In this document: in pieces, positions 6,667-63,193 of the stretch | Layout: the number at the start of each line of letters is the position of its first letter | Numbering within the stretch: position 1 is the first letter of the stretch | Program-made: the position numbers and the translations under genes | The notes under the pieces: generated by a model | What the model was told of the DNA's origin: nothing | Databases searched by the model: none | What the model saw: only the letters and a program-made list of their open reading frames with translations | Source of the DNA: Clytia hemisphaerica | Lineage: Eukaryota; Cnidaria; Hydrozoa; Leptothecata; Clytiidae | Assembly (NCBI GenBank): GCA_902728285.1 | Contig: CACVBU010001134.1 | Span: 124,001-188,000 of the forward strand | DNA: 64,000 nt | Direction: 5' to 3'

Positions 6667-7095
6667 AGTGTCCTCCTGGGTTGGTTCCCCCCACCATATT
6701 TCAAAATTTTTCGGTTCCCCCCTCTTTTTTGAATTCCCCCAGCTATTTGAAGATTTTGCGGTTCCCCATATGGCTAACATAAAAATGCCTTAAATCAAGT
6801 TTGAAATTTTGGAAAGATTGAAAAAATAGCCTTGAAAGTGCTGGAAAAATGAAATTGTATTGAAAAGTTGGTTTATCCCAAAAGATAAATTGCTGATTTT
6901 ATTGCTTAAACAGGTTTTGCAACAAGATCACCTTGAGATCAGTGAAGTTCCCCCAGTCAAAATCTCCTAAATTTATGTTTTTCCCCCCTCTTTATTTTCC
7001 CCCAGCAAATTTCAAATTTTTCATTTTCCCCCATACTTTAAAAAAAGGGCCAAAATCAGAATCCCCCCCTTTTATAAAGGGGGGGGGAGGACACT
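6667..7095. mobile_element. Punctuated TIR element, TTCCCCC motif
   Basis: The ends are AGTGTCCTCCTGGG (left) and the complement of GGGGAGGACACT (right). The interior repeats TTCCCCC/TTCCCCCC roughly every 20-40 bp (for example at about 6683, 6713, 6735, 6762, 6947, 6982, 7005 and 7027), mainly in the left and right thirds, with dissimilar AT-rich sequence between. It directly abuts the foldback at 6478-6664. No coding capacity. Confidence 0.65.
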
Positions 7096-8666
7096 TTGTC
7101 TAATTTTTTTAAAAATGGCCTTAGTTGAAACGAATTTTTAGACAAAAGTGTAGAATATTACACCTGTATATTATATATGGTTGGAATGCTAAAAGAAAGC
7201 TCTAAATTACTCAAAAATAATTAATTTTATAGCTCAACTACACAAAGAACAATTCCTTGTCAAAGTTTGACCTAAAATTGAAGATTTTGATAAGCATCAA
7301 ATAAAAAACAAGCAAACCTGGAATGGCTAACTGAGCGCGCAGAGGTTGACAATTAGGAATCCAGACGTGGCAAAAGGGGTCTCCTACTCTCCGACTCTAA
7401 CTTCAGAGTAAAAATCAGGGTCGGTCGGATCGGATGACGGGAACCAAACAATTTTTAGAGATCCGCCTTATATATAGTCTTGATACCGTCAACTGTTCTA
7501 ACTTGGGGCGATTGGTCGAAACATGGGACTGGTTGATATCTGGTCTGTATTTTCACTTACTGTTAAATCTCTTTGACAACAACATAGGATCCACCCCCCC
7601 CCAGAGATTTGGGGGTACTTAAAAAAAAAAAATTGTTAAAAAAGCCAGGTACAGAAATACAAAATTTTTCCCACTGCGTGGGATACAAACATCAGTGAAT
7701 TAAATGAGGAAACATATTTTTTGAACCTCTGAGATTCAAGGGGATATTCCTAGCTCATTCTTAAGGCATTTGTTTACCCTTTAACCTGTTAAGTGCCACT
7801 GGAGTTATATGAGATTGGCAGGTCTAGGTGATAGAATGGGAGTTTTAACAAGTTGACAGAGTATTTTGCTTCTCTTACCTTCCTCATTATGTAAATTAAA
7901 GAGATGTAAAGAGTTGGACCATTTAGGTTTTTGTTTTTGAGGTTTTGTCATAGTTAGCAAAGTTTATTCCCCTGAGGTATATCATCAAAATCCATTGTTT
8001 CATTTTATGATTTCAACGAGGCGGCAACAAAGCTAGCAGTGCTATCTTCAAAAAATACAAAGGAGATGGATGTCCAGTCATTTATATGTTCATGGCAGAC
8101 TAAGCGCGCAAATTATTTTTATCACGTGTCTCAAGACAGGTGTAATAAAGTTGTAAAATTTTAATGGTGGGCACAAGAAAGTTTGCATGCCTTTCATATG
8201 TTGTGTAACATAGCTTCAACCAGGTTTCTAGCTTCCCCCAACAAAGTAAGGTCCCCCTCAACAATTTAGCTCCCTCCAAAAAATTGCCTTGTGCTAGGTC
8301 CCCTAACATTGTTCTCCATAATAACATTCAAGGTTTGTTTTGATTATTTTACAGATCCGGTGTTGACTTTAAAGGAGGGGTGTTGATATTAGACGATTCT
8401 ATGGTAGTTGTTTGGGAGAATGTGACAGTCCTTTGAATAACTAATTACTCCAGCAGATATTTTTTTAATGATAACGTCATATAATCCATCTGTCTTTTAC
8501 AACAAAGCTGTTACAGGTAAGATAATTCATCATGTTTGGGTGGAGTAATTTATCATTCATTATCATCATCCCATTCTCCCAACGAATATCCAATCAATTG
8601 AATGTTTACTTACATCAAATGAACACAATTGAAGAACACAATTTAATAATTGCTTTTCGATTGTCT
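7096..8666. other. Gene-free stretch with interspersed-repeat fragments
   Basis: No gene is recognised. 7585-7845 is a diverged partial copy of the repeat at 50905-51400: TAGGATCC, a C-run, GAGATTTGGGG, GTTAAAAAAGCCAGGTAC, and later TATGAGATTGGCAGGTCT are shared in the same order. 8210-8330 has several GCTTCCCCCAA-like motifs and may be a decayed punctuated element. Confidence 0.5.
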
Positions 8667-8920
8667 CGGGGGGAGGGGTACTTAGGCAAATGGAGGGTAC
8701 GGTATGTGCCGCCCTTAAGGGTACCATTTTTAGACTTCCAAAGTCCTGCTAAGGGTCAGAAAAATCAGAAAATCAAATTTCAGTCCCACTAAAGGTCGGA
8801 AAAATAGGAAAATTTCAACTTTTATAGAAATTTGGTCCAAATTGGTCAAATTTTCCTTTGTTTTCTCCTTTTTAGTCCCGGTAAGGGTCCAAAGTTCGAA
8901 AGTTGGGCGGCACCCCCCGT
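8667..8920. mobile_element. Punctuated TIR element, AAGGGTC motif, copy 1
   Basis: It starts CTCGGGGGGAGGGGTAC and ends with CACCCCCCGT, so G-rich and C-rich ends face each other. GTGCCGCCC near the left end is mirrored by GGGCGGCAC near the right end. AAGGGTM/AAAGGTC motifs recur between (8716, 8752, 8793 and 8882 areas). 23005-23290 is a related copy. Confidence 0.6.
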
Positions 8921-8942
8921 CAGCTTGCAACCCTAATACGCT

Positions 8943-9922: not shown

Positions 9923-12900
9923 ATGATTTATATACAAAAGGCTTTCACGTTGCTTGCCTTGATACACAACTTTGGATCTTTGACTTATGGGGCAAAAATT
10001 TGTAAACCAGTGGATCAGTGTTCATGTAATTTGGAAGGAGAAGGAGAGGTTTCTTTACATGCTATTGATCAACGCAATTCACCACTGTAAGTGATAGAGA
10101 TAATGTTTGTTTCTTGATTTTTTGTATTATGTTCATTATTGCGCCATTCCATTTTATATCCATACAGGGGAGTGGATGAACATTTCCAGAGGGTAATCCA
10201 AGAGAAATTTCCAGTTTTTCTTTTTTCCAAGGGGGTAAAAAGCTTTTCTAAAATTTCCAGGGGATAAAAGACTGATTTTAGTTCGTCCACCATCACTTTA
10301 TGGTATGAAATTTTACTATTTTCTAGGGGATATCCACTCATTTTCAATATTTTTTTTGACTTGAAAAGGTTATTTCATCCCCCGGTATGGGTTTTTAATG
10401 TAACAGCCCATTGCTGTAATAAATTTGCTTATTGCTTATTGCTCATTATATTCTAAAGTTTCCTGGATATCTCATTTGTAATATCGAATTTCTAAAAAGT
10501 ATTTAAAATTTGCTCTTTTTGTATACACGTTTTTTTCATATTAGAGCAAACTATACAAGAAAATTAAGCTACTAAAATATTAAGAACAAGTTATGAGCAT
10601 TTTGAGGCTTTGGGGACTCTAAAACACCTAATTTCTTAGAAAAATGGAAAAAATAACTCAATAAATAATAAAAGTTTTCCGACTTTCGGTCACTAATTAT
10701 TTTACTTTCACGAACCTGCTAAACTTGAATTCTTATAAATATATCTACCACGATCTATCTATCAATCTGTTTATCTATAGATATCGATATTTAGCTTCTT
10801 TTAGATTGCTTGTTTCCATAAATAACGTGCTCTACTTCTGGCAGATTTCGTTTTATTGTTCCATCCATATAAAATCGTTCATTATTTATTTTACAGGTTT
10901 CCAGATATTCCTCAAAGTTCAGGGTCCACATTTTTAATCAGTTACAATCCTTGCACCACATTCACCAAAGAAGATAATTGTAATAATGTCTTGGTAAGAA
11001 TTACGAATTGATAGAAAAATCAATTATAATTTGATTCCAAAAAAACTTAATTATTTTGAATCTTTTGTATTGGGCTCTTCCAGAAAAAAATTGAATATAG
11101 GGGGTGGAGGCTAACATTTTTTGGAAATTTAGTCCCCGAACATTGGGACTTTTGATCCCCCGGACAGTAGGTATAATCCCCCGGACAAGCATCAGTTGAC
11201 CCCCTGGACATTCTAAATTACCCTCAAACAGAGCAAAGTTACCCAAAAATAAAGCAATTTTACCCCTTGGACAAGACAAATTTTGTAGATTTTTCACTAC
11301 CCCCGGACACTATATTCTTTCCCCCCGTGTACAAAGGTTTTCTAGAAGAGCCCATTGCAAAATCAATCCGCGACAAACAACCGCTTCTCTCAAATAAAGA
11401 GTTTACTTTATCTAAGACGCTGCATATATATATATATCTGTATCTTTTATGTCGTAGTCACTTCCTTCTTCTCCATTTAAAATTTGGAAATAATTTACAG
11501 CTGCTTTACTTACAGAAACACATACCTCTTATTACTTCAGGCTTGTCAATATGCATCAGGTGACCCAACACAAACTTTCCCATTGGCAAAACCAGCTACA
11601 CGTGTCTTCACATACGATGAAACCAACCAACAAGTTGTTTTTACTTATACTGCTACCTCAAGTGACCTCGCTAAAAGGTTAACTTGTTTATTATCGAGTC
11701 CAGTCCCAGAACGTTATCACAAGTGAAAATTGACCTTTTTAAATACAGTAGACTTCCTGTTATTCGAATCTTTCTAAAAACTTTTTCCGCGATGGAGGTT
11801 CTTTCTAAGTTATTCACAATATTCAAGCGATTCTTGAAATTAGCTTAATGTTTTCATAACCAAAATGCCTCAATTTCTTAATGAAAACTCAACTTTAAAA
11901 AAGTTAAGTTGAAAGTTCTTTCGGAAAAGGTTTCAATTATTGGAACTAGAAATTCCGGTAGTTATACTGTAGCTACCAACAATGAAAGATACTTTCGGAA
12001 AAAACTACACATTTCTTTTATAAGCAAGCGAGCTGCTAAGGATCCAGCCCTGAGAATTGCCAAAAAATTAAACAAATTGGCCTTATTAACCTAGCCCTGA
12101 AACTGAGCTCATATCTAGAAAGCAACCAAAAATACCTAAAAAAGAGGCATTTTCGGCATTATTTGACTTGGTATGAAAATGTGTACCAATTGTATTTGAA
12201 TACCACATTTGAGGTATTTTGGATACAAAATGAGATACAAAGCAAATAATTTGCTAGGCATTTTTGGCTGAAAATCCATAAGCAACTTTTTGGCTGAAAT
12301 CCAAAAAATCCTTAGCAACTGCCGCCCTGAGCCGAAAATTGGGGTTACTTATAAAAAAAATGTGTATACCAGAATTCACAATGTAACATTACCCCTGTAA
12401 CTCATACCGGGTGACCCACGAAAAAGTTCAGACGTTTCCCGACATCTTGAGGCCGAAAAAATGTCCCAAGGTGCTTGAAGTTTTGATATTTAGAAAGTAG
12501 ATATCCTAACTTAAAATTTGAGCTATCATTTTTTAAATTTGACCGACTTGTTCTCTACTTATGAGCTTTTAAAGTCAAAATTCACTTTTCGGAAAGTGTA
12601 AAAAACACGTAAAAAAGAGGTATTAAATTTATGCAATCAATTAGAAAATCACTTACAAATTGACTTATTTAACGAGTTTTATGACATTAATAATTAATAA
12701 AAACACCTTTAAAAGTAATTTTTGCTTAAAACAAGACTAGTTTTTATAAAAATTGGCGCTTTTGTAGATTTTTCAGATTTTTTTCAAAAACTGTATATCA
12801 AAAGCGTCTAAAAATACCAAATTTGATACCCCTTTTTTACGTGTTTTTTACACTTTCCGAAAAGTGAATTTTGACTTTAAAAGCTCGTAAGTAGAGAACA

Positions 12901-17398: not shown

Positions 17399-17612
17399 TT
17401 AGGGAAGAAATTTTCGCGTAATTTAATTTCGCGGGCCACAAATCAAAATTCGGAAGTTTTGCGGAATTTAATTTCGCGGTGGAGAGGAATTTTTTTTTAA
17501 AATATGGCTTATTTTGCCCACAAAACACCAATTCTATAGGTGATTCTTTAAATCATGAGAATATTCTTGTTTCGTGGATTTGTCAAAAAACCGCGAAAAT
17601 TTCTTCCCTTAA
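17399..17612. mobile_element. Punctuated TIR element, TTTCGCGG motif, copy 1
   Basis: The TIRs are TTAGGGAAGAAATTTTCGCG and CGCGAAAATTTCTTCCCTTAA. Internal AATTTAATTTCGCGG words occur at about 17418 and 17465. The block CACCAATTCTATAGGTGATT and TCGTGGATTTGTCAA matches the copy at 49746-49933 in order. Right-end fragments of the family occur at 23338-23402 and 56818-56882. Confidence 0.7.
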
Positions 17613-18084: not shown

Positions 18085-18960
18085 TATGAAAAGAATTTTT
18101 AAATGCAGAAAGTAGCTGGCAAAATTATACCTTGAAAGTTATATTTTTGATTGTATCTTTGGGGCTTTGGAACATCTGTGACCTTAGGGTAACGAATTCG
18201 TGCCTTTAAAGGTAACTTCGAAAGTAGTTCATTAAAGATATGAGGCATTTAAGACTTTTTTATACCGTCTTTGATTTTTTTCCTAAACGCGACTATGGGG
18301 CTTAGCAACCTCTGCCGAATACGACGAATGACAAATTATGATGAAATTGACGTACGTTGAGGTACTATTTTTTAAACTAGCCATAACTTTCATTAAGGTG
18401 CCACCGCAGCAAAACGAACATATAGAGTTGAATTTGCGTTCAATAGGAATGATCTTAGCCCTACAGTAATTTTTGTTAAGAGTGACCTCTCATCTGAGAC
18501 AAAATTCTTTCAAATGCTAATAAATGTGTAGACTATAATGTGTCAAGGGAGTGATTTACAGTCATTTAGAGTGATCCGTGCCTTGTCTTACACGTTTTTT
18601 ATAAGAACAATTTCATAAGAATACGAGGCTGAAATTTGGCCGAAACCTAAGAACAAATTAAGAATAATCTGAACCTCAGATTTCAGAAATTACTGAGAAG
18701 TACATGTTTCCATTTTAATTAATATTGACATTTAAGGCTGAAAAACTCATATAAATTTAAGAGCAGCCCAGCCAGAATCATATGACTTACTGGTTGTTCC
18801 TATAAAAAGCGTATGTATCTGAAGAAACTGCTCTTAATATGTTATTTTACTAATGTACACGTTTAGCAACATAACTGTTCGAATACTTTGAGTAGAGTAA
18901 TATTTTTAACCTATGAAGAGCGCTTAATAACTACCTGTGATATAAAAAGGGAATTCCCTA
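18085..18960. other. Gene-free stretch
   Basis: Nothing recognisable as a gene or a bounded repeat. The last 12 bases (GGGAATTCCCTA) form, with the sequence after the next MITE, a palindrome-like empty site GGGAATTCCC-TA-GGAATTCCCC. Confidence 0.5.
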
Positions 18961-19429
18961 GACTAGTAAACTAGTCGTTGAAAAGAGACCTATTATACAA
19001 AAAATCAAGCTCCAAATAGAAGTTGCGTCTCTTTTCTGAATTTCAACGACTAGAAGCTACTTCCCTCAAAAAACGTTGTTTAATTTTACAACTTTTTTTA
19101 GGTTTTTGAGAATCCATGCAACTTTTTTGACTAAATATAAATAATATTTCATAGTAACATTGAACATGGGAACATATAAATAAATGAGCATTTCTAAAAA
19201 CGCAATAAACAGAAAGAAAAATAAATGCAATCCCGCACGGGTCAGACATACAGAAATCTGTATGTCTCTCCTTACGATTTTAGGTGAAGAAAAAAAGGCG
19301 TTGGAAGTAGCTTCTAGTCGGTTATTTTCCTTTTCTCTCACGCGCGCTGAATATTTAATTAGTGTTTACATTATTTGATTGACAGTTTTATTATAAGGTT
19401 ATAAGTAATAACCGACTAGTTTACTAGTC
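18961..19429. mobile_element. GACTAG-family MITE, copy 2
   Basis: The TIRs are GACTAGTAAACTAGTCG (left) and CGACTAGTTTACTAGTC (right), with TA at 18959-18960 and 19430-19431. It has the same inner arms as copy 1 (4993-5475) but lies in the opposite orientation. It is inserted in the middle of the GGGAATTCCC palindrome. Confidence 0.88.
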
Positions 19430-20043
19430 TAGGAATTCCCCAGAAAGGGAATTTCCTTAGATTCATTCAATTCTCCAGGGATAAGAAAAAGACACACTGA
19501 CATTTCAAAATGAGTAATCAGATCAACATAACTCCGAAAAAGTCTTTTTGATGATGATAAAACAATAGAGAGACCGTAAGATAAGAATGCTATCGTTAAG
19601 CGGAACTAAAATACTGAAAAACGCGCAAAATTACACGTTTTTTTTGGAGACTTAAAAACATGCAATTTCTTAAGAAATTACATCAAAATGCTCAAAAAAT
19701 GCTGAAAATAAGAACATTTTAAGAACATTTTTAGGCTTCAAATCCAAAAAACTAAGAACATCCGAAGGCTTCGAAAATTTTTGACGTTCTTATAAAATAA
19801 AAAACGTGTATGAAATGTTTGCCCAACTTCCTTATGCGTGAAGCTATGAATGCCATCCTCAGAAGTTTTAGGCTTCCTCCGGTGGCAATAAACCTCGGAT
19901 GGAGAATATTATGAGGGTATGAGAGAATACAATAAAATCATACTATCGATGATCATACTTCTTGGTTATAACCTCCCTTGAAAAAAACTAATTCCTTCAA
20001 ACGTTTGGCCGAAACCAACAACCCCCTGCTTTCAAAAGATATA
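19430..20043. other. Gene-free stretch
   Basis: No coding region is recognised. 19838-19880 shares a short block with 5630-5660 (see the 5574-6477 entry). Confidence 0.4.
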
Positions 20044-20737
20044 CAGTTGAACTCATGTAATTCGAACTCCTATAATTCGAATACTCACCTAATTCGAACA
20101 GATTCTGTGGTCCCCTCATAATTTACCTCGAAAACCTTACAAGAAAACTCCTTTAATACACCCCTGTCTCAGTGACCCAGTGGACTCTGAAAGTTCACCG
20201 GGTTGACTTTCAAAAAAATAAATTTTCACTGGGTTGACTTTCATGAGCAAAAAATACACCGGGCTCAAAAATTTTGACTTACTTTTCTCTGGGGTGAATA
20301 CAAATTATAAGCGATTTTTTCTATTTTCAGCAGGAAATTACACTTTAACGATCCTTTGATAACCTCATTATTCTTCTTATTAGCGTAAAAAATTAAGAGT
20401 CGATAGCCTAAAATCTCCTAAAATCTCCACCAGCAACTCCTTCTGTTCAGGAGTAGATTTAGGATGTTTAAAAAAGGGTGGTGTATATTTGCTATTATGA
20501 CGTAACGGCTACATCAGTGTGTGAGGAGGCGCCACCTATTGGCGCCGACGGTGAAGAAAATTTTTGAAAATAGGACCCTCTAGATGGGCTAAAAACGGCC
20601 TCAAATTTCAAATTGTTGAAAGTAAAACAGCAGTTTTTTTGGTCGTAATATAGCAAGATTTCATTCTTTTCAGAGTGGAAAAAGAAAAAAATGGGTTTCC
20701 TTATTCAAAAAATTTTTCATCCTTAGGTTTAGGGTTC

Positions 20738-21031
20738 TTAAAGGCCTAAGCCAACCTGCTTTTTTGGCCATTTTGAGGCCTGAGCCCTTCACTGCGTTGC
20801 ATATAAAAAGTGTGTAGCTAAAAAGTTATGATAGAAGAAGAAAAGATCCCACAATTTCTTTTAAAATCCATTGACTTTTTGAATGAATAGGCATCCATCT
20901 TACTAACTACAATAATAATGTCCACAGTTTTTCTTTTAAAAACATGAAACCATCCAAGCCTCACAAAGGGGGAGAATAAAACAACGTGTTGTTTTTGATT
21001 TTTTGAAGAAATATACATTTTTGATGGAAAC
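20738..21031. repeat. 294-bp direct repeat, copy 1
   Basis: TTAAAGGCCTAAGCC to TTTTTGATGGAAAC, apparently identical by eye to 21514-21807 with a constant offset of 776 bp. The open frame inside it is present in both copies and looks non-coding. Confidence 0.9.
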
Positions 21032-21513
21032 TCTTTGCAGCCTTATCAGAAGCCTTAACTTGGGTTTCGGTGACGGTCGATGACGGCCGACAAGCCTCCA
21101 GTCCTCACCCTTAATGTACCGTCATACTAAAGAATAAGGAGGCAGAAACTTACCTCAAACACTGACTAAACTACAAACAAGCAATACATAACATCTCCAA
21201 CCAATAAAACAAACCATTTTCCACTAAATAAACATAAAAATTTAGTTACAGCAGTCAATAAGCTCATAATTTCCAAAAGAATATTTTGCCTGATTTTCCA
21301 GTTTGCTTTGACAGTTAAAATCGAAAGTAGGTGGTTTCAAACTATTGAAAATAGTTTGTTTACATTTTCTCTCCGTCATATAAGACATTTCCCGGGATTT
21401 AAAGGCGTCTTTAAGGCGGTAGGGCGGCTTTTCTTAACACCCCATGAAAAACGTATATTTACGGCCTCGGCTATATATTAGAACGTAAATTTACGGCCTC
21501 GGCGTGGTAAAGG

Positions 21514-21807
21514 TTAAAGGCCTAAGCCAACCTGCTTTTTTGGCCATTTTGAGGCCTGAGCCCTTCACTGCGTTGCATATAAAAAGTGTGTAGCTAAAAA
21601 GTTATGATAGAAGAAGAAAAGATCCCACAATTTCTTTTAAAATCCATTGACTTTTTGAATGAATAGGCATCCATCTTACTAACTACAATAATAATGTCCA
21701 CAGTTTTTCTTTTAAAAACATGAAACCATCCAAGCCTCACAAAGGGGGAGAATAAAACAACGTGTTGTTTTTGATTTTTTGAAGAAATATACATTTTTGA
21801 TGGAAAC
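21514..21807. repeat. 294-bp direct repeat, copy 2
   Basis: Second copy of 20738-21031, with 482 bp between them. The layout resembles two terminal direct repeats around a short core, or a tandem duplication of 776 bp in which only the repeat is complete. No LTR-type TG...CA ends were seen. Confidence 0.9.
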
Positions 21808-22130
21808 ATTTAACATTTCCCAGGGTATTAACTATTAGGTCGGGGGGCACTGACCAGGGTATCAAGCAAATGAATTCTTGGCAGTGTCACATTGTTTTAA
21901 ATCATAGCTTGGGTTTCTTGGTATCTTTACTTCGTACATACATTGCATGTCAGCTCAGGATGATAGCCGAATCTAGGGATATAATCCATCAAAAATGAAT
22001 TTAAAACATTATATATTCCCAAGCTAGTTCAAGAAACGTCGTTTGAGCTCTGAGTTTGGGAAGAAGCAAAGCACATCAAATTATCCCTAAACATTAACCG
22101 ATTCATAATTTTGATAACAAAAACCACATT

Positions 22131-22287
22131 AATAGACGATATCGGCTTAACGAAATTCTCCCCGAATGATTACCCATGATGCATTGCGCAAAAAAATTCA
22201 GTAAGTCAATATTGTCCGTGAATTTTTTTGCGCAATGCATCATGGGTAATCATTCGGGGAGAATTCGTAAAGTCGATATCGTCTATT
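22131..22287. mobile_element. Foldback MITE, AATAGACGATATCGGC family, copy 2
   Basis: The left arm AATAGACGATATCGGCTTAA and the right arm TCGATATCGTCTATT share tips with 8943-9109. The inner arms ATGATTACCCATGATGCATT and their complement differ from copy 1. Total arm length is about 70 bp, so most of the element can form a hairpin. Confidence 0.8.
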
Positions 22288-22854
22288 GCATGATCTTGAA
22301 AGTCGGTTTATACATGTATACTGTATTTGAATTGATTCAACAATTTCAGTGGTCACTAGAAAACCCATATCATGTGCTTCTGCTGCTGTCGTATTTTGCG
22401 GGCCATGGGACATGCAGCATCTGGGCAAAATGAATTATCCAAAAATTCCTCACAACATATACAACCATGCAGGCGTCGCGGCTCGACATTTTAAGTGGTG
22501 TCTAAGGAGGCGCCACCATGGTTGGCGCCGACGGGCTAGAAAATTTTGCGAATTTCACTCCTCTAGATTGGTTAAAAAAGGTTCTTGAAGAAGATAAAGC
22601 TCATAAAGTGCTTGAATATCATGCGCAAGGTAATGTTTTTATCTTGCAAGAAAGCAAAAAATGGAAAAAAGAAAATAGAAATACAAACAAAAAGAGAAAT
22701 TTAAACAATTAGATTAGATTTAGGCGTGAACGTCATAGTTCAATTTATTTTTCTAACTGACTTTTCAAAACATTTGAAAAATTAATTTTTTACTTCAAAA
22801 AAATTTTTTACTCTGAAAAAAAGTGGTCGGGCCTACCGCTGCCGCGGCGCCTGC
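22288..22854. other. Gene-free stretch
   Basis: No gene is supported. The open frames near 22349-22712 lack any recognisable motif. GGAGGCGCCAC with TTGGCGCCGACG at 22506-22532 also occurs at 20527-20551, so it is part of a repeat. Confidence 0.4.
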
Positions 22855-22964
22855 CATGGTCTGAAAATTTCGCAACCAAGAGATACGAAGTACTTTCGTT
22901 TTCTAAGTTTTGAAAACGAAAGTGCTTCATAGCTCGAGATTGCAAAATTTTGAGACCATGATAT
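22855..22964. repeat. 110-bp foldback
   Basis: CATGGTCTGAAAATTTCGCAA at the left pairs with TTGCAAAATTTTGAGACCATG at the right. The centre TTTCGTTTTC/GAAAACGAAA is also inverted. Confidence 0.7.
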
Positions 22965-23004
22965 TGCAGCATTGACCTTTTTCTTAATCTTAAATCAGCA
23001 TAAA

Positions 23005-23290
23005 GTTTCCCCGGGGGGGGGGGCACTCAAGGTAAGTGACCTACCAGACGTGCGGCCCTTAAGGGTAGGTTTTTTGGATTTTGGAATTGTGCACTGTAAG
23101 GGTCGATTTTTGAGCAAGTGGGAAAAAATGCACTATAAGGCTGTAAAATTTGGAAACATTCCAAATTTTCAGGCAAGATTTGAGAAATTTGCCCTGAAAA
23201 GGGCAAAAATTTTAGAAAAATTGCACTGTAAGGGTCGATTTTCAGCCAAATTTTTCCTGCACGGTAAGGGTCTGATTTTAGAGACCTGAT
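23005..23290. mobile_element. Punctuated element, AAGGGTC motif, copy 2 (right end not set)
   Basis: It starts with a C/G run and GCACTCAAGGTAAGTGACC, then GTGCGGCCCTTAAGGGTAGG, like 8700-8730. CTGTAAGGGTCGATTTT recurs at about 23094 and 23225, with variants at 23130 and 23262. The right TIR is not clear. Confidence 0.5.
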
Positions 23291-23337
23291 TTTTGGGAAA
23301 GTTTCTGATCGATTATGTAGTATATAATATGCAGGTT

Positions 23338-28763: not shown

Positions 28764-28849
28764 ATAGAGAATTCCCGTGAAGTGATTGGTTAGAATTCTC
28801 TATTTTTCTCTATTTCAACAAAAGGCCTATTGTTCAAATTCTCTATTTT

Positions 28850-45070: not shown

Positions 45071-45103
45071 AGGTATAAGATGCTTCTGGGACCGCAATTT
45101 TTG

Positions 45104-49745: not shown

Positions 49746-49933
49746 TAAGGGAACAAATGTTCGTGGGAAGAAATTTTTTGGGCAAATTTTCTGTTTACAA
49801 TGGCCTTTTTTGCCCTAAAATACCAATTTTAGAGGTGATTTTCAAAATCTTTACAATTTAATTTTGTGGATTTGTAAATAAACTGCTAAATTAAATTTTG
49901 CAAAAATTTGTTCCGCAAAAATTTGTTCCCTTA
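49746..49933. mobile_element. Punctuated TIR element, TTTCGCGG family, copy 2
   Basis: The TIRs are TAAGGGAACAAATGTTCG and GCAAAAATTTGTTCCCTTA. TACCAATTTTAGAGGTGATT and TTGTGGATTTGTAAA match the interior of 17399-17612. TTTTGCAAAAATTTGTTCC is repeated at the right end. Confidence 0.7.
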
Positions 49934-49990
49934 TTAAGGTATAGATAGGGCCAATGGAATAAATATAATCTTAAGTTTACACGACACTTT

Positions 49991-50275
49991 CTTCTCACAG
50001 ACCCACTGGGAACCATTCCCATTGGAAAGATTGGCCAAAATATTGTCCCCAGTTAAAATTATAATCTAATTTTTTTTCCCACTGAAAAAAATCAGATAAG
50101 CAAATCCTCACTGCAAAATGTTGTGCTTTTCCATCTCCACTGAACTTTCTGGCAAGAAAACAATGGAACTCATATCCCAAGCCATAAAAAACATGGGAAT
50201 ATCAATCCGTTTTGAGTTTTATTCCGTTATTTTTACCCCCACTAGCTGATAAAATCCCACCGGGTCTGTGAGAAG
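49991..50275. mobile_element. Punctuated TIR element, CCCACTG motif, copy 1
   Basis: The TIRs are CTTCTCACAGACCCACTGGG and CCCACCGGGTCTGTGAGAAG. The internal motif CCCA(C/T)TGRRA recurs at about 50018, 50078, 50108, 50136 and 50236, about every 30-60 bp, with unrelated spacers. Copies at 31530-31803 and 62306-62517. It ends 78 bp before the first recognised J-protein exon. Confidence 0.78.
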
Positions 50276-50352
50276 GGGGTGTTACATGACAGCACCATGA
50301 AGGGTGAAGTTAAGGGTGTACATACATTCAAATCTTTTTGTTTTTATTTCAG

Positions 50353-53300
50353 AGCTTCTAGGGAAGATAAATTCTGATCAAGCCAGCCCCAATGGTTCTG
50401 CTGGTTCCCACGATCATGTGAGAAGGCGGAGGCGGACAAATAGTGGACGAAAAGAAGAAGAAGCAAAAGCAGAAACCAAAGAAAAGAATTACACACCTGA
50501 ACAAGTAGAAGATGTTGAAAAGTATGCCAACAAATGAGTTTCTCACCTTGCTTGCCTTCCTTTCTTATTTTGTTAATGATATATAGTTTTGATATAGTTT
50601 GCCTTTTCCGTCAGCGGATGCAGACCTGATTTAGCAGGTTGAAGACCTGAATTAACGTTCAAAGACCTGAATTAAAGGCCAGAGACCTGAATTAACGGCC
50701 AAAGGCCTGAATTAACGGCCAAAGACCTGGTTTAACGGCCGAAGACCTGATTTAGCAAGTCACTGGCCAAAGACCTGATAGATAAGTTAGGGTCAGTTAA
50801 AGTAGCTAGAACCACTCGGCGAGGCATCAGTTGCGATGGTCCAGTGGTTAGTGCAGTGGTATCGAAGACGAAAGATGTGTTTGAGAGTTTGAGTTATTGG
50901 TATTATAGGATCCAGCCCCCCCTCGGAGATTTGGGGTACCTAAAAAAAAAAGTGTTAAAAAAGCCAGGTACCTGGAAGTATTCTTAAATTTAGGGAGTAC
51001 CTGATATGTTTGGGGTACCTGCATTTTCATTAGTGGGGGCGGGGGCTGTTGTTTTTGTATGAAGTCATCACCCTTGAATTCCTTGAAACCCTTGAAACAG
51101 TCAATATTATTTTGGGGACGCTTGAAATGCAAGATTTATACCCTTGAAACCCTTGAAATGCCAAATTTTGTGGCCATTTTCAGCCATTTTAACTTTCAGA
51201 AATACAAAATTTTTCCCATTGCGTGGGATACAAACATCGCAGTGACTTAAAAATGAGAAAACATACTTTTGGAACCCCTGAGACTCAAGGGGATATTCAA
51301 CGCTCATTCTTAGGGGGTTTACCTTTTAAACCCGTTAAGTGCCACTGGAATTATATGAGATTGGCAGGTCTGGGTGATAGAATGGGTGGTTGTAAAATTA
51401 TCAATTATCAGCCAATTTAAGGGCCCTCCTTTACACAAAAATTGAATATTTATAAACCTTTCTCCTTTTGTCGACTGATTTCCTTGAAATCTTTGAAAAC
51501 TAGCAAAGATCAACTAAAAACCCTAGAAACCCTTGAAAGTTTGTGGTTTATAAAAATCTCTTGAAACCCTAGAAAATCATAGTCAAAAATGACACCCTTG
51601 AATTTGTTGAAAAGGAAGTGATGGCTGCCATGGAAGTATTTTCCCAGGAATGACAAAATAGCAAAAAATCCCTTTTTGTATTTTTAACAATAAAAAAATT
51701 AAAAATGGGGTAACTCAAAGTTGGGGGGTTACTTTTGAATTCTAAAAATTTTGGGGGTACCAAAATGATTAGGGGTACCTAAATTTTTTGGGGGTACCTG
51801 AACCCTGGAGGACCCTATGGCATTTTCATTCTTTTTAGTTTAAAATATTTAAACTTAATTTGTTTTCAATACTAATTCCTATTGAAACATCATATAAAAA
51901 TCTTGATTGAATTTATAAAAAAGGTTTAAAAAATAACAAATTTCCACAATTCATTATCTCCAGGTCTTCCGCCGATAAAAAAGGTATTCGACCGCTGCAT
52001 CAAGTCTTCAGTTTCTAATTCAGGTCTTCGACTGCTAATTCAGGTCTGCATCCGTTGACGGAAAAAAAATCTGCGCCACGGATACAAAATGTTGTTTTTT
52101 AACAATTTTTGATAATCTTTCAAGAGGTAAATCCTTCTAACGTTCCTAAAGTCATGATACCACTATTTCTTTTTTTTAGAATAAAAAAATGTAAAGATTT
52201 TTACGAAGTACTTAGTGTTTCGAAATCACCATCAGAGGCAGACCTGAAGAAATCGTACAGAAAATTAGCATTAAAATTTCATCCTGATAAAAATCAAGCA
52301 CCTGGAGCTGCGGAGGCATTTAAAAGTATTATTTTTTTTCAAGGCAAATGTTTGCAATATCCATGGTTTATTGTTTAGTTAAAATGTTAAGGATTATATG
52401 AACTTTTTAAGGATAATGATGAAATTTTAGTCATTATGTTGACTATGTGTTATTTTTTGATAATTGATAATAAAAAAATCGACAGATTTTTATGATATTT
52501 TTTATACTTATGGAAAGTGAAATTTTTGTCTCCTGTCGGTATTTTAGATTGAATTAAATTTAATTTTTCAAAGGAATTGCTGCAGCATTTGAAACACTAG
52601 GAGATCCAGAGAAAAAGCGAAAGTATGATACTTATGGAGAAAATGCTGGACCAACCACTCGACGCACTCGTAGAAACTATCACGAGGAAGAATTTGAAGG
52701 TAACTCAACTATTTCTCCTTCTTTCAAAGGCCGGTCTCCACTTTCGCGCGAAATTGGCGACAGTTTTTTCATAACCTTTTTTGCCTGAAGAAAAGATTAC
52801 GTCATAAAAAAGTTTCGCGCGAAAAAAAAATAAAGTTGAAGGAAGTTACTTTTTTTATCCGTTACGTCAATTTCAACCAATTGAGCAGAATGGAATCGCT
52901 TCATTTTTCAACCGACCAATAACCTTACGAAAACGTAAAAAGGTTTTCGCTCGTGTCGCGCGAAAGTGGAGACTGACCTTAACTTTTCATTGTTTATCTA
53001 TGAAAGTCTTTAAAAACAGCCTGAATCATCCGAGGCGTGCGATAGCACGTGCACGCCTCCACGCAACCAGAATTTTTTATTTGTGCGATCAGCCTTACCA
53101 CACGCCATAAATTTCTTGTAAAAATGGTGGTTAGCATTGTCTTATCACATGTCTAGAATCTCAGATTTAGGTGATTGACCTCACACATGGAGTTTTCAAA
53201 TGACAAAACCTGTAAAAGTATAATTATAGAACTAAAACCTGAATAATATCTTTATTCGTAAGGTTTTTCATCACAGCTGAAGGCCGGTGAGATTGTTGAC

Positions 53301-56300
53301 CAGTTGAAGCTAGTGTTTATGTATATCATTTCTATCCTCATCACCACAACCTTCTTCTTCTGTTTTAGATATTTCACCGGAAGATATTTTCAATATGTTT
53401 TTCGGCGGAGGGTTTCCCGATGGTAAGATAAACAAAGTTTTTGTCAACAACTTGCTTTTTTTTGTAATACCAGGAAATTGTTTATCCTACGAATGTATAA
53501 TGAATGAAAAAATAGTTTTTCACCACAATTTCCATATTCAAAATTAGATCAGTCCTGTCAGTAACAAGTAAATTTGCTTGATTTGTATATTATTTACTTA
53601 AACCATACTATACAAGCTGAAACATGTTGGAAATTTGCTTTTAATGGTTTCTTGTCCGGAGCATCTTTCCAATACATGGAAAAAGACGCGCAAGCGATCT
53701 AAATATCGTTTTAAGAAAAATGTCTTCTGTTTAATTTTGATTTGGCTACACATCATTACAATGCTTTTTATGTTTCACTTTCCAATATATTGTAATATAT
53801 TGTATTTTACTTTTTGATCACATCCCGTTAGGCCGAGTTCATGTTCGAAGAGGACGTAGAGGTCAACAAACATATTTTCGTCAAAACACACATTCTCATA
53901 ACAACAACCATCATCAAAACGAAGTAAGCATTGAAAATAAGTAATGTCTTTGAAAACCTAAATAAATCAAAAGATCTGCGAAATGATTAAAAGTTTTGTG
54001 TCCGCTGTAAAATATAATTTTGTCCCGGATTTATTTTTTGCAAAAAAACTAATCCAGACATTGGTTAAAATTAATAAAAACTTTTTGTTTTGTTAGCGAT
54101 AGAGGGCGAAAATCAGCGATGAAAAATGAAAATGTTTTGTCCTACATTGTTTGTTATTTTCTATCCCAAAAAAGAACAATAAACTTTTAATTCCTCACAT
54201 GTCTAAATTCTTCGTACAGGTATTGGCGCTGGAAATTATTTTTTTTCTGCAGACACCTAGTCATAACACACAGTCATACCAGTCTCTTTCTATCATTTAG
54301 TGATAGTGGTTTGAGTCTGGCACAATGTTTCAAAATTCTGTAGAGTTAGGAGGAATTTCTGTGATATTTTATCTTAAGAGGGTGAATCTCTTTCTGGCGG
54401 GTGCTTGCCACTATGTTTTACAAAAGTAATTCATCCAATTTCTGTTTTTTTCTTCAGAACGTATCTTCACTGTATCCTTTGGTGCAGATTCTACCTGTTC
54501 TTCTTATCATCCTCTTCTCGATGCTCAGTAGTTTCCTTATTCCCGAACCAATATTCAGCTTTCAACCTACATCGTAAGTATATTACAATACACATTTTCG
54601 ACTGTACCTGTCTATTCAGGGGAGGGGGGGTCGGTAGTAAAATATCAGACATATATGAGTAATAAAAGGATTTTTACGAATTTTTACATACCACCACCCA
54701 GACTTTTGGAAGAGGTATTTTACTACCCTGGTAGTAAAAGTTTTTGGGACAATTTGTCATAAAGACCACCTATTTTTTGGTTGCTTTTCGGACTGATTTT
54801 ACAAAAAAAGCTAAACAATGATTATTTCTGTGACACATTTTTCACTTTGTGCAAAAATAAATGTTTTTCCCTTAAAATTTAAGTCTTTTCTATATTGACA
54901 AAATATCTCGAGAATTTTTTGTTTGCAGCAAACAACTTTCCAACAGAAGATTTTTTCAAGTTATTAAAATTTTCAGATTTTTTCAGAAAAGTCATCCAAA
55001 AAATTAAAAGAATTACAAAAATAGCTAAAATTTGCTAATTTTACCAGTTTTAACTACCCAGGTAGTAAAACTTTTTCAACATTTAACACATAAATACCAC
55101 CCATTTTAGTATTTAACTACCCTGGGTAGTAAATCTTTTTTCGATTTTTCGTCACACCACCACCGTAGTAAACGTCATTATGTGTGAGATTTTACTACCG
55201 ACCCCCCCCCTGGTCTATTGCTACCCTAAAACCGCCCCAGTCTTTTTTTTTGCGCTTAAAGGAAATAGAAAAAAGTGTAAAAAAAGATTGGATCGAGTTT
55301 AGGGTGTGAAATTAAATAATAAAGTGGCACACGTCTGACTTGTGCGACTACGGTCGAAAAGTTGTATTCAGCAGTATTCAGAACTTTGTGAAATATTATG
55401 CTATAAGTATACTGAATGATAGTAAGAAGCAATTCAATAGGTAAAAGTGTGCTATTGAGATTTATTAACCTTGAGATGATGTAATATTGAGTTGAATATA
55501 CATCACCCAGTGTTAATAAATCCAACAACCAACTTTTACCTATTTATTTAATACCTGCCTATTATAATAAAATATAGAATTAAGGTCGAAACATTAAACT
55601 AGTAAAAATAAACAATGAAATAAATACATTTTCTGGTCATAGGAAAGTGTTTGCTCTCTCTATTTGAATTAGTTGCTTCCCCATTTAACTTTCATTAACC
55701 CAGAAGTGTGTGGTACCTTGAATACTGAAGCCTGATCTCAACTGAATCAAGATAAGAAGATCAGTAGAAAATAAGACTTTGTTAACCACATGTGCCAATT
55801 TAATTTTTATTTCCAAAGTAACATTTTTCTCTTCACAGACAATATCGATATCCAATGACAACATTCAAACTTGGTATAAAATACTATGTTAAGGTGAGTA
55901 TATTATTAATAACAATAGATTGTTTAACAGTTCTGACATTAGTCGTAGTATAAGTAGATGGTTTTGAATCGAACTCCAGATTTCAAGATCTTGAAGAGAG
56001 AAAAAATTACATAGTTTCTACCCCCCCTACATTCAGGGGGGTCTTGGGTTTTGATGAACCAAAAGCAAAGGGGTGTTAAAAGTATGACTTTCCTAAGGGG
56101 GGTTGCCAGTTAAGGGGGAATCTTCCTTGAATTATGCGAAATTTCAATTTTTTTCTTTTCCAATAAAGTTAAAGGGGGTGTGAAATTTTAAATTAATTTC
56201 CTAAAGGGGGGTTAGCACTTAAGGTGGGGGTTCTCTTACCTATGGGGGGGGGTCTTGACCCCTCTAGAAGCTATGGTTGATTCGACCTTACAGCTTATCA

Positions 56301-57156: not shown

Positions 57157-57528
57157 AAGAGAAGAGAAAAGTGGCGGGTAGATGATTCTCTTTATCAATT
57201 AAATTGAGATGTGAATTACCAAGTTATTGTCCTTCATTTTGGATTGGAAGATTGAAAGTCTCTAAATTTTCCCAAAGGAAATATGGATGTAATGGTTTTT
57301 CATTACCGCCAACCAGAGTATCAATCGATATGTCTTCAAGATAGAAAAAAGAATGTTGTTGTTTTTTACAAGTTAATTAAGGTCACAGTTACATGAAAAT
57401 GGGCACTTGTAACTAAGAAATTTAAGTAGTTCCAAAATGGTTTGAATGACAATGACTAAATTTATGATGCTGCCTTGACAGTTACAATTGGAAAAGTTTG
57501 GAAATTGTTTTTCCTGGATATTTAGACC

Positions 57529-57785
57529 ATGTTCACGTGTTACTGTTCCGTTTCGTTCCGATATGGTTTTCGTTATGGATCGAGTGTGTTCATATTGGTT
57601 TCGGAACGTTTCGGTGTAAGAAAACGGAGCAGTCCCATTCTGATAAAAAAAGTGGTGCGAAACCGTTTCGATCTGTTTTGCTTTGTAACGTCTTGTTTTT
57701 GACATTTCAAATTTTGACTTTCACACTTGTTTTGGAACCGTTTCGGAACGGAACGGAACGGAACGGAACCGTAACGTCTGAACAT
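57529..57785. mobile_element. Punctuated TIR element, GGAACG/TTTCGG motif (J-protein 3' region)
   Basis: The left end ATGTTCACGTGTTACTGTTCC and the right end GGAACCGTAACGTCTGAACAT are imperfect TIRs. TTTCG/GGAACG words fill the interior (57550-57630 and 57660-57760), ending in four tandem GGAAC units. It lies about 370 bp after the J-protein stop, so it may be transcribed in the 3' UTR. Confidence 0.7.
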
Positions 57786-60084
57786 TGAAGACGAGAAGAA
57801 AATCTGGAAATTTTCATTACTGGCTTGTTTTAAATTATCAAAATTTATATATATAATGCTGAATTAACGTTTATTTTTGATCTTTTTTTTTTTTTTGTGT
57901 TTAGAAAGTGATTTTGTTTATATGATTTTCTTTTAGTTTTGTGCGTATATTGTATTATAATGAATTTTTTTTTAATACAACATACAAATCGAATTTGATA
58001 TTATTCAGAATTCCAAAAATTAGAGATACTATTATTAAAAATTGATAAATGATCAATATTAGTCGAAAAAGATAGAAGATAGAAATTAGAAATTAGATTC
58101 GAGACCTGTTCAAAACTATTGAATTTTTCAGCAATTAATAAATTTACGGTTGAATATTTTCCATCAAATGCAATTTTATAGTATATGTATTTGTATTTTG
58201 AGTATTTTTTGTCTGGATATAGAATAAGTATGAAATCCTTTAAGATAATAATTTTATGGAAGAAAAAGTAATTTTATTTATTAGACACTCATATCGATTC
58301 AAAGAAATGAAATTCCGTATTTTCTCGGATTTATCAAATCGTGCTCTTAATGCTTCTGCAGAAGATTATGGATATGCTTAAAGAATTTAATATTAACTTA
58401 ATTAAACCATCGATTGTTTTCTTCGCTTTTAGATATTCTTGAAAATCACAAACTAATAGAATCGATGAAATGGTAATACTGAATAATAAAAGAAGTTTAT
58501 TTAACAGAATTTGTTTCTGGTGCATATTTGGCAGTATGGATCTCAAGAATAGAACAGTGGAAAAAAGACTTAATATAATCTGAAGAACCTAAAGATATGA
58601 AAATGAAAAGAGTTACAAAAAGTGAAGATGCTTTGATGTTTGGAGATGCATTTATGGAACGACCATCCAGCTCCTTTCCACCCTGATTTATAATGCTATA
58701 TTTGCTCTACACGCTATCGAGCCAGCTCTTAAATGATGTTCAACAACAATATAAATAATGATATATTGGTTGATAAATCTATATTGATAGCACCTGAATG
58801 GAGCGTATCTTTCAATAAAAGTGAAATTCAAAGACTGGACAATTCGTGTCAATCCATCAATGGAGATGCGCGTGTTTTGGTACTTATCGTGGAAGAATAA
58901 ACATTGAACGGATGATTGTTAGTTCTAATCAACGCAAAAGCCTGGATAATATCCTTGATGGGTAAAATATGGGTAAATGGGTAAAATATTGGAATAATAT
59001 GGAAATTTAAAATATATCAATATACAGCGAACGGAGCTTTTGCTTTTAATATAAATACCTTGATGCTTACAATTATTGATGATGGCTGGGATGCACAAGT
59101 TGGAAAGTTGAAAAGTCAAAATGTTAGTTTGTTGTATAAATTCATCAACACGAAAGAAAATTAATACACAAAAGTTGTCAGCTGGAACTGCATTCTGGTA
59201 TAAATACATCAACACAAAATCATCATAACTTGAAAATGTTGAAAACCACGTGACATGAGAAATGTTCAAAATGTTTTGGATCAAGCAACAAATATCATCA
59301 ACAGATGTGAAGTAAGTCATTTCATCTTCGACTCCATTACGATTTTCTTTTTATATATAACAAGACGCCTTAGCGGCGTGAAGGCCCAGCGATTGTCTTC
59401 TTATTCCATGTTGTTTACGCTTATGGGAATAACGCTTGTAATTTTTTTATCTGCCTGTGTTTAATTTATAAACTAATAATTGTGAGGTACATTTTGTCTG
59501 AATCTGATATTGGACGCTTTTTGTACTATTTTTCCTGTTACAACTACCATATATATAAGCAGTGTAGACCTAACTCTTCATACAAAAATTACGGGAAACG
59601 CATATTTGGACTTTGTACCCTATGCTGCACTCAAGCACTTGGGCCAAAATCCCGCAAAGGCGGGACAAAAATCAGTTTTTTGAAGTTTGCAAAAAAACGC
59701 CACATAGAAGATCTTTCAAATTCAGTATGTGAATAGAGCAGTAAAAAATACAACTTTTCTATTTTTCCTTTTTTTTGCAAAAGTTCTATTCTAGGAATGA
59801 AAATAAAGGGATAATGATAATTGAATACTATCCATTGATGATCCGCGGCATTATCGTAAAGCTAGAATCGCTTGTTGGAATGTTTATAAGGCTCTTGACA
59901 GAATATTGTTTGTTTTATTGTCAATGATGACAGTGCCGTTATAAATTTTGTTAGATCTGACAAATTGATGTTTGTAAGTGCACTTTATAGTTTTGATTCC
60001 CATTGAAGAATCATATTCTGGTTTTCATGTTATTAGATGCTGTTTTAGAGCTTTAGAGCTACACTGATAAGTAGTAAGTCTGCG
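57786..60084. other. Gene-free AT-rich stretch
   Basis: No protein, RNA gene or clearly bounded repeat is recognised. The open frames at 58334-58546, 58925-59320 and 59482-59736 have no motif I know. Confidence 0.45.
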
Positions 60085-60335: not shown

Positions 60336-61441
60336 TATATAGAGGTTTAAAATTTGAACTAATGATAAAGGCACTTATAAAAGGGATTCAATTATTTCGC
60401 TATTTTGGTATACACAGGGGAAAAACTACTAAAATAATGTTTTTCCTTTGAAGAGATAATTATTTGGATGAGGGTGTTTGGAGTTTAAATCTCATAGTAG
60501 ATCTTTATAACAAGGGAACTCATAGAACTGACAATCCAAAAAAATAATACTACATATATACAGCTGCATAAACGACGCTTAAAAAAATCATAAAAATTGA
60601 ATTATAGTTTACAAAACGCACCATAATAAACAATCCTTTAATTTTTCATTAAATATTAATCATATTGTTTTATTTGTTGAAAATAGCCAACATTTATTAG
60701 ACGATGACAGTTATAAATGCTCTGTTCCTACCCCCTAAACATATTATTTTCTTTGTATATATTTTGTTTATTTTTTATGTCCTATATTCCGCTTCTTTTT
60801 AAAACTGTACATATTATATACCTAACTACTTTGGGTGATAAAAGAGATATATATATAGTCTAGAAGTATAAAACCTTCAACTACTTAAAATGGAAACAAT
60901 AAAGACAAAAACCCACAAAACAAAAAGACAATACAAATACAACAAAAATCTAGAATGAACATTCACAGAAAATCAATCAGGTTGGAGTAGAAAAGGAAAA
61001 TATGATGACATAGAAATCCGTCAATGTAAAACTAGTGATCTAAAATGACTTTAAGGAAGAAAGTAACTCAATATGAGTTAAGGTGGAAAGAAGTAACTCA
61101 ATATGAGTCAAAAAATATTTCAAGAAAACACATTATCTGTTCCTCAGTTTTCGACCTACACAGGATTTCGGCCATTTGTGAAAATATCCTCCTATATGAT
61201 GGAAATAGGGTTGTGTAGGTAGGCCAAGCAGTGTTAATTAGACACCACCACAGATAAAAGATAGTAAAAAGATGTGTTTATTGAAAGTATAAAACGCGCG
61301 CAATAATATAAAATAAACTAAAACGTAACACGGAACCAGCCGAAGAAACTAAAATTACAATGAGAAAGGAAGTATACTTTCTACTAGACAAAGTTGCCAC
61401 ACCTTTGACACGTTTCTGCCACAACGTTGTAGAAAGCATAC
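60336..61441. other. Gene-free stretch
   Basis: No gene is recognised. AAGTAACTCAATATGAGT occurs twice (61063 and 61090), a local tandem duplication. Confidence 0.45.
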
Positions 61442-63193
61442 ACTACTAACCCGATCACCATTCCTCACGGACATCTCCATTCCTCACTATTCCTCTTCTA
61501 TTCCTCACCATTCCTCAGCGTTCCTCGAACGTTCCTCAGGAATGGATATTTCAAAACTTTGTTTTTAGCATTCCTCATCTATTCCTCGAACGTTCCTGAG
61601 GAATGGACATTTTATGACGTTATTCTTAAGCGTTCATCACTCGTTCCTCGAATGTTCCTCAGGAACGGACATTTATGACGTTAATTTTAGGCGTTCCTCA
61701 CTCATTCCTCAAACATTCCTCAGGAATGGAGATATTTCTTCTTCACTTTATCGTTCCTCATCTTTTCCTCGAACGTGCCTGAAGAATGGGCTTTCATGAC
61801 GTTATTTAAAAGTGTTCCTCGTTTGTTCCTCAGGAAAATATATTTTCGGAGCATTTAATACATTTTCATGGATAAGATATTCAATATCAAAAACTTTTAT
61901 GTCGTTTAAAATTTCAGGCTCTGCCTCCAGAGAAAGAGAGAGGGCTAAAGAAATACTTTTGTCCTTTAGAACACATTAGTAACGGAAGCTAAATTAACCC
62001 ATATTCGTGCGTCCGTTTGTTACCAACTTTTCTCAAGATTGGCTCATTCAAAGTTTCTGATTTTGGCACAAAGGTGCATGACTAACAAACCCTCGAATGT
62101 GACAGAGCCCGATTGGATCATTAGTTCTTTCACTTTTTTGCATGAAAGTAGGGTATTATCGTAGGTAAAAGATGGCTGAAGCAGATTTTTGCAAAAAAGA
62201 TTTTTCAGCTCAAAAAACGCATCTTTATCTATAAGAACCGCTATTAATAAGCATACATCAATGTTCTTAGCCAAATTACTCAATTTTTTTATGAGATAGA
62301 TGTTTCACAGCCCCGGTGGAACTTTTTCCTCAATGGGAATAGGAATTTTATTGTTCCAAGGTGGAACAAAAATCCAGTGGGGATGGTTTTGGAGTGCAAT
62401 TCTTAAACATTGAATCTCGAATGGGGATGAAAATCCAGGGTATTTTCCCACCAGGGAAGAATTTTTGCAAAATTTTCCAGTAGTGATGAGGTCTCAGAGG
62501 GTCTGTGGCACAGGATCTTATTTGTGTTTGAGCATGAAGTTTTGGTTTCTAAACTCGTTTTTTCGGCTGCAAATACAATGATTTTTTTTGACGTTTCAAA
62601 AAATCTTTCACGTGTCTAATTATAATTATAATTTGAATAATTGCAAAAGAATTAACCAAAAATTGTATTGGGCATAATATAATACGTCAAAGTGATGAAC
62701 ACTTTACATGAATGTCCATTCCTGAGGAACGTTCGAGGAATAGATGACTCTCTATGAGGAACAATAAAGTGAAAAAGAAATATCTCCATTCCTGAGGAAC
62801 GTTCGAGGAACGAGTGAGGAACGCTTAAAAATAACGTCATGAAACTCCATTTCTGAGGAACGTTCGAGGAACGTTCGAGGAACGAGTGAGGAACGTTTAA
62901 AAATAACGTCAGAAATGTCCATTCCTGAGGAACGAGTGAGGGATGCTTGAAAATAACGTCATGAAAGTCCATTCCTGAGGAATGTTCGAGGAACGAGTGA
63001 GGAACACCTAAAAATAACGTCATAAATGTCCATTCCTCAGGAACGTTCGAGGAATAGATGAGGAATGCTAAAACAAAGTTTTGAAATATCCATTCCTGAG
63101 GAACTTTCGAGGAACGCTGAGGAATGGTGAGGAATAGAAGAGGAATATTGAGGAATGGAGATGTCCGTGAGGAATGGTGATCGGGTTAGTAGT
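61442..63193. mobile_element. 1.75-kb element with long inverted repeats built from GAGGAACG units
   Basis: The ends ACTACTAACCCGATCACCAT and ATGGTGATCGGGTTAGTAGT are exact complements. Inverted similarity runs about 400 bp inward on the left and about 490 bp on the right. Both arms consist of units of about 60-75 bp with ATTCCTGAGGAACGTTCGAG, GAACGAGTGAGGAACG and AAAATAACGTCATGAAAGTC (right arm orientation). The centre (61860-62690) is unrelated and holds a nested CCCACTG-type element. Weak CATAC/GATAC flanks are a possible duplication. Open frames in the arms are repeat artefacts. Confidence 0.85.
62306..62517. mobile_element. Punctuated element, CCCACTG family, copy 3 (diverged, nested)
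   Basis: The left end CACAGCCCCGGTGGAAC and the right end GAGGGTCTGTG recall the CACAGACCCACTGGGAAC tip of 49991-50275. Internal GGTGGAAC, CAGTGGGG, CCACCAGGG and CCAGTAG words are spaced 20-50 bp. It sits inside the core of 61442-63193. Confidence 0.5.

Follow-up and report, generated by a model that had tools for sequence, protein, structure and literature searches.

A 64,000-nucleotide stretch of the Clytia hemisphaerica genome (contig CACVBU010001134.1, positions 124,001 to 188,000; hereafter the window) contains a series of mostly small elements with inverted ends, in which a short word recurs through the body. They are reasonably likely to be non-autonomous DNA transposons, both miniature inverted-repeat transposable elements (MITEs) and foldback-like elements, that come from several superfamilies and in which subterminal transposase-binding sites have been multiplied. 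Their copies are dispersed through the genome and have conserved tips, repeated words, and target duplications that differ in length. The elements are ordinary in kind and unusual in abundance, and two features of them stay surprising: the arrays in which words point in one direction, and the matching blocks that differ between two versions of one family. The initial annotation of the window listed 15 entries, including one given as two halves (20158-20300 with 29320-29560), and families are named here by the window position of their entry; L-numbers (L001, L002 and so on) denote loci elsewhere in the assembly that were fetched with their flanks.

The assembly (417 Mb in 951 contigs) was searched genome-wide for seven of the 15 entries (6667, 49991, 11071, 52727, 29317-29560, 54617, and 57529), and all seven are dispersed mobile families, with 80 to 3,417 first-look candidates each. 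These totals are candidates rather than confirmed copies, 40 being scored per search: 3417 for 49991, 2187 for 11071, 1127 for 52727, 939 for 57529, 819 for 54617, 355 for 6667, and 80 for 29317-29560, the right end of a long element at 20158-29560. A sister of the 52727 family, found at L021, gave a further 1614. Relatives of 8667, 50604, 50905, and 61442 are present as pieces in the flanks of the first 38 loci; these flanks hold no piece related to 10166 or 56010, and no genome-wide search was made for either. The family-by-family alignment that the initial annotation proposed for defining ends and target duplications returned conserved tips in the searched families and countable duplications in 49991, 11071, 52727, and 6667, with several annotated ends displaced by 1-7 bp from the borders found here. 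Its description of every entry as a small element with terminal inverted repeats (TIRs) holds for most of those tested, but 56010-56275 has neither a good border nor a duplication.

Target duplications were counted over distinct flank pairs, taking only exact repeats next to the tips, and hits with an incomplete tip or flank were dropped. A 3-bp duplication, ATT or AAT, occurs in seven of nine flank pairs of the 11071 family (1/10 hits dropped). The 52727 family (version A) has an exact 3-bp duplication in 15/20 pairs (14 TTA/TAA and one CTA), and its sister (version B) in 12/15, all TTA/TAA (1/17 dropped, one locus repeated). Exact duplications of 5 bp are found in four of six pairs for the 6667 family (2/8 dropped), and of 6 bp in 7/22 for the 49991 family (14/36 dropped). 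With mispaired flanks as a control, agreement was 0.00 where the duplication is 5 or 6 bp long, but the 3-bp families still reached 0.35 to 0.44 because few triplets are in use; the 3-bp evidence therefore rests on the match between left and right within each copy. Because the lengths differ, different transposase groups are indicated. The four counted duplication groups represent at least three transposase superfamilies, as PMC4482050 unites PIF/Harbinger with Pangu under the name PHIS. If two single-copy cases (61441 and 54617) are counted, five superfamilies are probably represented.

The single copy at 61441-63194 has the tip CACTACTAACC with ATA on both sides; an alternative placing, with GATC, had a slightly better score in that scan. 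CACTA (En/Spm) elements have a CACTA tip, a 2-3-bp duplication, and subterminal repeat arrays. The window copy resembles them in its CACTA tip, 3-bp duplication, and repeat arrays, and differs in that its arms are built of 61-bp units and no open reading frame (ORF) of at least 150 aa lies inside (no family search was made). Transib elements duplicate 5 bp of target sequence, the length found in the 6667 family, and its CATAGTG resembles the Transib heptamer.

In PMC4482050, Pangu is described with an ANT duplication and PIF/Harbinger with TWA. The 52727 family has the 3-bp TWA duplication of PIF/Harbinger, and the 11071 family has both the ANT duplication and the AG/GG tip start of Pangu (its tip begins GGGCTC). 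The 52727 and 17402 elements, with TTA/TAA, and the 11071 family, with ATT/AAT and a GG tip, are thereby like the MITEs of PHIS; they are unlike the published elements in that the term "subterminal" is absent from that paper's main text, and no transposase is tied to the MITEs here. For the 6-bp group, IS3EU elements usually have 6-bp duplications and TA..TA ends (PMC10045372), and duplications of this IS3EU/GingerRoot length occur in the 49991 family and in the long 20158-29560 element (TTTAAT). The 49991 family does not fit IS3EU/GingerRoot: its elements start with ACACCCC rather than the TA..TA (or TG..CA) termini given there, and in L035, where ATTCAC is duplicated (6 bp), no T precedes the tip. 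Nor does it fit Dada. According to PMC3706591, Dada U6/U1 families have 6-7-bp duplications and subterminal rather than terminal inverted repeats, and are defined by a fixed insertion target in small-RNA genes and the lack of TIRs, whereas the duplications of the 49991 family vary among copies and a TIR of ~20 bp is present.

Repetition of words was assessed by counting any 8-mer on both strands, with one mismatch at most, and comparing the counts with those in 200 dinucleotide-shuffled sequences, using the family consensus for 49991, 11071, 6667, and 52727, the left arm only for 61442, and excluding 50604 and 50905. A recurring 8-bp word exceeds shuffles in 10/13 window elements (p ≤ 0.015, uncorrected); it does not in 8667 (p 0.46), 52727 (0.53; sister B, 0.65), and 49746 (0.19). 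As background, at least six word copies occur in 21/334 flank pieces of 280 bp, which are not length-matched and some of which hold similar elements. Exact 8-mers taken from the tips exceed shuffles in total count (p < 0.05) in 9/16 cases (8667, 10166, 17399, 50604, 50905, 52727, 54617, 57529, and 61442) and, by the stricter best-word count, in 5/16 (10166, 50604, 54617, 57529, and 61442). The initial annotation had stated that a word from the tips is repeated inside each element and had suggested a shuffle control: repetition as such is borne out in most elements, but an origin of the word in the tip applies to the smaller sets only.

We infer that these words are subterminal transposase-binding sites. 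In elements of a few hundred bp, the two subterminal zones would meet, such that sites may fill the whole element; slippage or unequal exchange could multiply a site, and copies with more sites might outcompete others for limited transposase. Different families could then reach the same layout independently. The tandem units, the related spacers of some families, and the gap in the array of L018, all described below, speak for this reading. The spread of binding repeats through the interior, presented as novel in the initial annotation, is less so given the foldback-type element Galileo, whose internal tandem repeats carry additional transposase-binding sites, as cited in PMC4079207, which also mentions a proposal that separate lineages came to the foldback layout independently. 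The elements here share with Galileo and Tetris the tandem repeats within inverted ends, but long or tandem-built inverted arms are confined to 61441-63194 and 50604-52065, and most elements are short, with words throughout the body and mostly in one direction, unlike the foldback elements of PMC4079207. Provided that the words serve as binding sites, this genome would be a natural experiment on non-autonomous elements competing for transposases, in which several groups occur together, each with hundreds to thousands of candidate copies and a variable number of sites.

The two versions of the 52727 family bear on this reading. Consensus A was built from 20 copies and consensus B from 17 L021-type hits (one place counted twice), and 177/245 aligned positions are identical between them. 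The tips are nearly the same (19/20 at positions 1-20 and 23/26 at positions 221-246) and the core is largely kept (111/139 at positions 51-190), while the subterminal blocks (positions 21-50 and 191-220) agree at only 24/60 (Fisher 1.3e-7 for blocks versus middle, with blocks picked after viewing the alignment). Within each version the two arms agree, at 21/26 positions in A and 24/26 in B. From A to B, the neighbours of CGCGCG switch from T..A to G..C at all three sites, and the joint chance of the two inner-site changes is 0.0016, a rough guide, as the rates used include those two sites. A search for further states (exact tips, with a different base at both ends) returned one element, L085, which resembles a decayed relative of A, and only two states have been seen under this strict exact-tip pattern. 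Such a pattern would result if subterminal blocks that determine specificity had been exchanged symmetrically, for which copying from arm to arm is a possible route. A symmetric difference with agreeing arms counts in favor of the binding-site reading because it is expected if the blocks carry specificity. The coral CMITEs are comparable as MITE families with a common interior and different outer parts; in PMC2872659, however, they keep their interior while their ends are less conserved and their TIRs vary, whereas 52727 A and B keep both tips and interior and differ in the subterminal blocks. A broader proposal, tentative and rather unlikely, is that subterminal blocks are exchangeable specificity modules: the 52727 and L021 versions would have kept tips and core but differ in their block set, which would have switched jointly at the two ends and around the inner CGCGCG. 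Separately, MITEs of several groups would bear arrays in which these modules all point one way and are recognized by a polarity-sensing factor. The A/B pair in any case singles out a short block that is testable for transposase choice.

Several observations weigh against binding sites as the explanation of the words. Inner words run almost wholly one way in ten of the families scored, by 54 to 1 in sum (49991, 7/0; 11071, 6/0; 6667, 9/0; 56010, 6/0; 20158, 8/0; 8667, 4/0; 10166, 2/0; 17399, 3/0; L011P, 4/0; 50905, 5/1), and sites serving two mirrored ends should themselves mirror; such arrays conflict with the usual picture of mirrored ends. This sum omits the 61442 and 50604 rows, which cover one arm only, and includes 8667 though its word is not above shuffles; direction is significant alone in 5/10 families, the others being 8667, 10166, 17399, L011P, and 50905. 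In the 20158 element the word has the same direction at both ends, except for one in the left tip. Words are mixed in direction in 54617 (4/3), L003 (13/13), and 57529 with its relative L016, and CGCGCG, the word of 52727, is palindromic and hence directionless. In addition, the 11071 element and the element at L011:2904-3198 have similar tips and the same ATT duplication but different words. Comparison among copies shows no consistent excess of conservation in words over spacers (word/spacer conservation 0.896/0.930, 0.942/0.911, 0.935/0.967, and 0.989/0.990 in four comparisons), an excess being seen only in 11071, although this is expected if copies drift after insertion. Finally, DDE_Tnp_4 has 152 matches in the genome, a good number of them in open frames; they include, as PIF-type transposases, a 423-aa DDE_Tnp_4 protein with an adjoining 171-aa Myb/SANT protein at L086 and a 562-aa protein with THAP and DDE_Tnp_4 at L087; at these two of the 152 loci, read without their element ends being captured, the MITE tips gave only one 12-base match with one mismatch.

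The most serious rival attributes the arrays to replication slippage or template switching, which would have left degenerate minisatellites whose words, without function, seem preserved only because short GC-rich runs are conspicuous in AT-rich DNA. We regard this as unlikely, though well short of negligible. It would account for the predominance of one direction, for the lack of consistent extra conservation of words among copies, and for the tandem units detected by Tandem Repeats Finder in seven entries (11071, 29320, 49746, 50604, 50905, 57529, and 61442). Likeness among copies of the same word is also present within 8 bases of it (p ≤ 0.05) in 14/15 sequences, and the true unit is therefore slightly longer than the word. 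At 4-14 bases from the words, spacers are related in 6667, 61442, 50905, 50604, and L003, which thus consist of degenerate tandem units, and likeness is borderline (p 0.083) in 8667, 17399, and 54617. However, none is detectable at this distance in 49991, 11071, 56010, 20158+29317, L011P, and 10166 (p 0.14-0.81), where a short core was thus retained and the remainder lost, and shuffles fail to reproduce five of these six, L011P standing outside the shuffle test. The claim of the initial annotation that spacers are unrelated is accordingly tenable for some families and wrong for 6667, 61442, 50905, and 50604, and the single repair or template-switch process that it suggested survives as a process multiplying sites, seen in the tandem units and in L018, a relative of 11071 from which ~58 bp of the array is missing.

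A strand-specific host factor, for example one binding G-runs in RNA or single-stranded DNA, might act on some arrays in place of a transposase, but this is improbable. In its favor are the predominance of one-way words and the different words beside like tips and an identical duplication in 11071 and L011:2904-3198. Runs of at least four G also number 57 on one strand and 4 on the other in eight families, selected from 18 rows examined for having such runs; the flanks have 1.4 and 1.5 such runs per kb. Against this, the inner part of none of 14 sequences has a four-run quadruplex pattern, the shared context around the runs, examined for splice-like features, is only weak, and other families have no G-runs.

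That low-complexity DNA merely creates the appearance of such a pattern, as three of the 13 elements not above shuffles and the borderless 56010 might suggest, is very improbable and is contradicted for most tested entries by the other ten, and by the dispersal and conserved ends of the searched families. The suggestion of the initial annotation that one transposase class mobilizes all elements, which draws on their common general layout and co-location, is scarcely credible, being contradicted by unrelated tips and by duplication lengths that are 3, 5, or 6 bp among the counted copies and 7 bp in one copy.

The long TIR element (20158-29560, word CACCGGG) has TTTAAT on both sides and is composed of 20158-23937 and 29222-29560. 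The halves paired in the initial annotation do belong together, as the ends of one long element interrupted at 23938-29221 rather than as a small element. Its right end has 17 full matches among 40 scored, window copy included. Copies L089 and L090 run from window 23.9 kb directly to 29222, and because they lack it, the 5.3-kb segment at 23938-29221 is identified as an insertion with its own inverted ends of ~60 bp; within this, 26667-28764 consists of two 1-kb tandem copies that are 90% alike. A second nested element, at 22470-22853 (tip CAGGCG, flanked by CCATG), is missing from L090. A six-frame scan of 20300-29322 found no Pfam domain at E 0.1, and the idea that the 9.4-kb element is an autonomous partner encoding a known transposase was therefore rejected, its 5.3-kb inner part being an insertion.

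The remaining elements, like those above, are assigned to no strand. The MITE family at 6664-7098 (tip CATAGTGTCCTCC, word TTCCCCCC) has at each end degenerate tandem units that run the same way, and its 5-bp duplication is seen in other copies, none being visible in the window copy. The repeat at 8667-8940 (word TAAGGGTC, not above shuffles in the any-8-mer test) is related to pieces of L002 and L059, and its borders are unsure, while 10166-10340 is a candidate small element with the word TTTCCAGGGG in one direction. In the MITE family at 11072-11353 (tip GGGCTCTTCCAG, duplication ATT/AAT), the word CCCCCGGACA occurs six times in the consensus, all in one direction. The second ATT-flanked element, at L011:2904-3198, has a word of the TTCCNNGGGGG type. 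The small element at 17402-17608 has the tip GGGAAGAAATTTTCGCG, the duplication TTA (single copy), and the word TTTCGCGG, and that at 49747-49932 has the tip AAGGGAACAAAT and a word not above shuffles. The window copy of the 49991 family spans 49984-50282 (tip ACACCCCCTTCTCACAGACC, 6-bp duplication), with the word CCCCACTG nine times in the consensus at up to two mismatches, all in one direction; an older relative (71%) at 31538-31818 is missing from the annotated list.

Two elements are foldback-like in that their inverted arms consist of tandem repeats. One, at 50604-52065, is built of 20-bp tandem units containing AGACCTGA and is interrupted by the element at 50905-51818 (word GGGGTACC, 18-19-bp tandem units); the two had been listed as separate, but the latter is nested in the former, of which an insert-free copy lies at about L019:2450-2900. 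A shorter relative of the nested element is at window 7584-7840, the same copy also being in L001. The other, the CACTA-tipped element at 61441-63194 (duplication ATA in the window copy), has long inverted arms of ~61-bp tandem units containing GTTCCTCA. At L081:791-1720, inverted arms are composed of many copies of TTTTTGCGTGGGTCA.

MITE subfamily A is represented at 52728-52979 (tip AGGCCGGTCTCCAC, TTA/TAA in relatives), with CGCGCG at three sites. The MITE family at 54617-55212 has the tip CAGGGG and, as seen in the window copy only, GTCTATT (7 bp) on both sides, and carries the word GGTAGTAAA in both directions; 57525-57788, whose right end is approximate, has the tip GACCATGTTCAC, a CGTTTCG-type word in both directions, and the duplication TTA or TCA in two relatives. 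The weakest entry is the G-run array at 56010-56275, which is without a firm border. The highest word number seen is at L003:194-742, with ~29 copies of CAATCGAA in both directions, the tip CCAGACGGTG, and the 6-bp flanking repeat TTACCT. A further TIR element missing from the annotated list occurs in the window as two copies that are 93% alike (4991-5477 and 18959-19431), with the tip TAGACTAGTAAACTAGTCG and flanking repeats of 8-9 bp.

Elsewhere in the window, ORFs include a reverse transcriptase (RVT_1), a piggyBac-type transposase (DDE_Tnp_1_7) at 33314-35442 that is broken into two ORFs, and a Helitron at 36563-42101 whose ORFs have Helitron_like_N and PIF1-like helicase domains. At 46182-46871, units of ~180 bp are arranged in tandem in nearly four copies.

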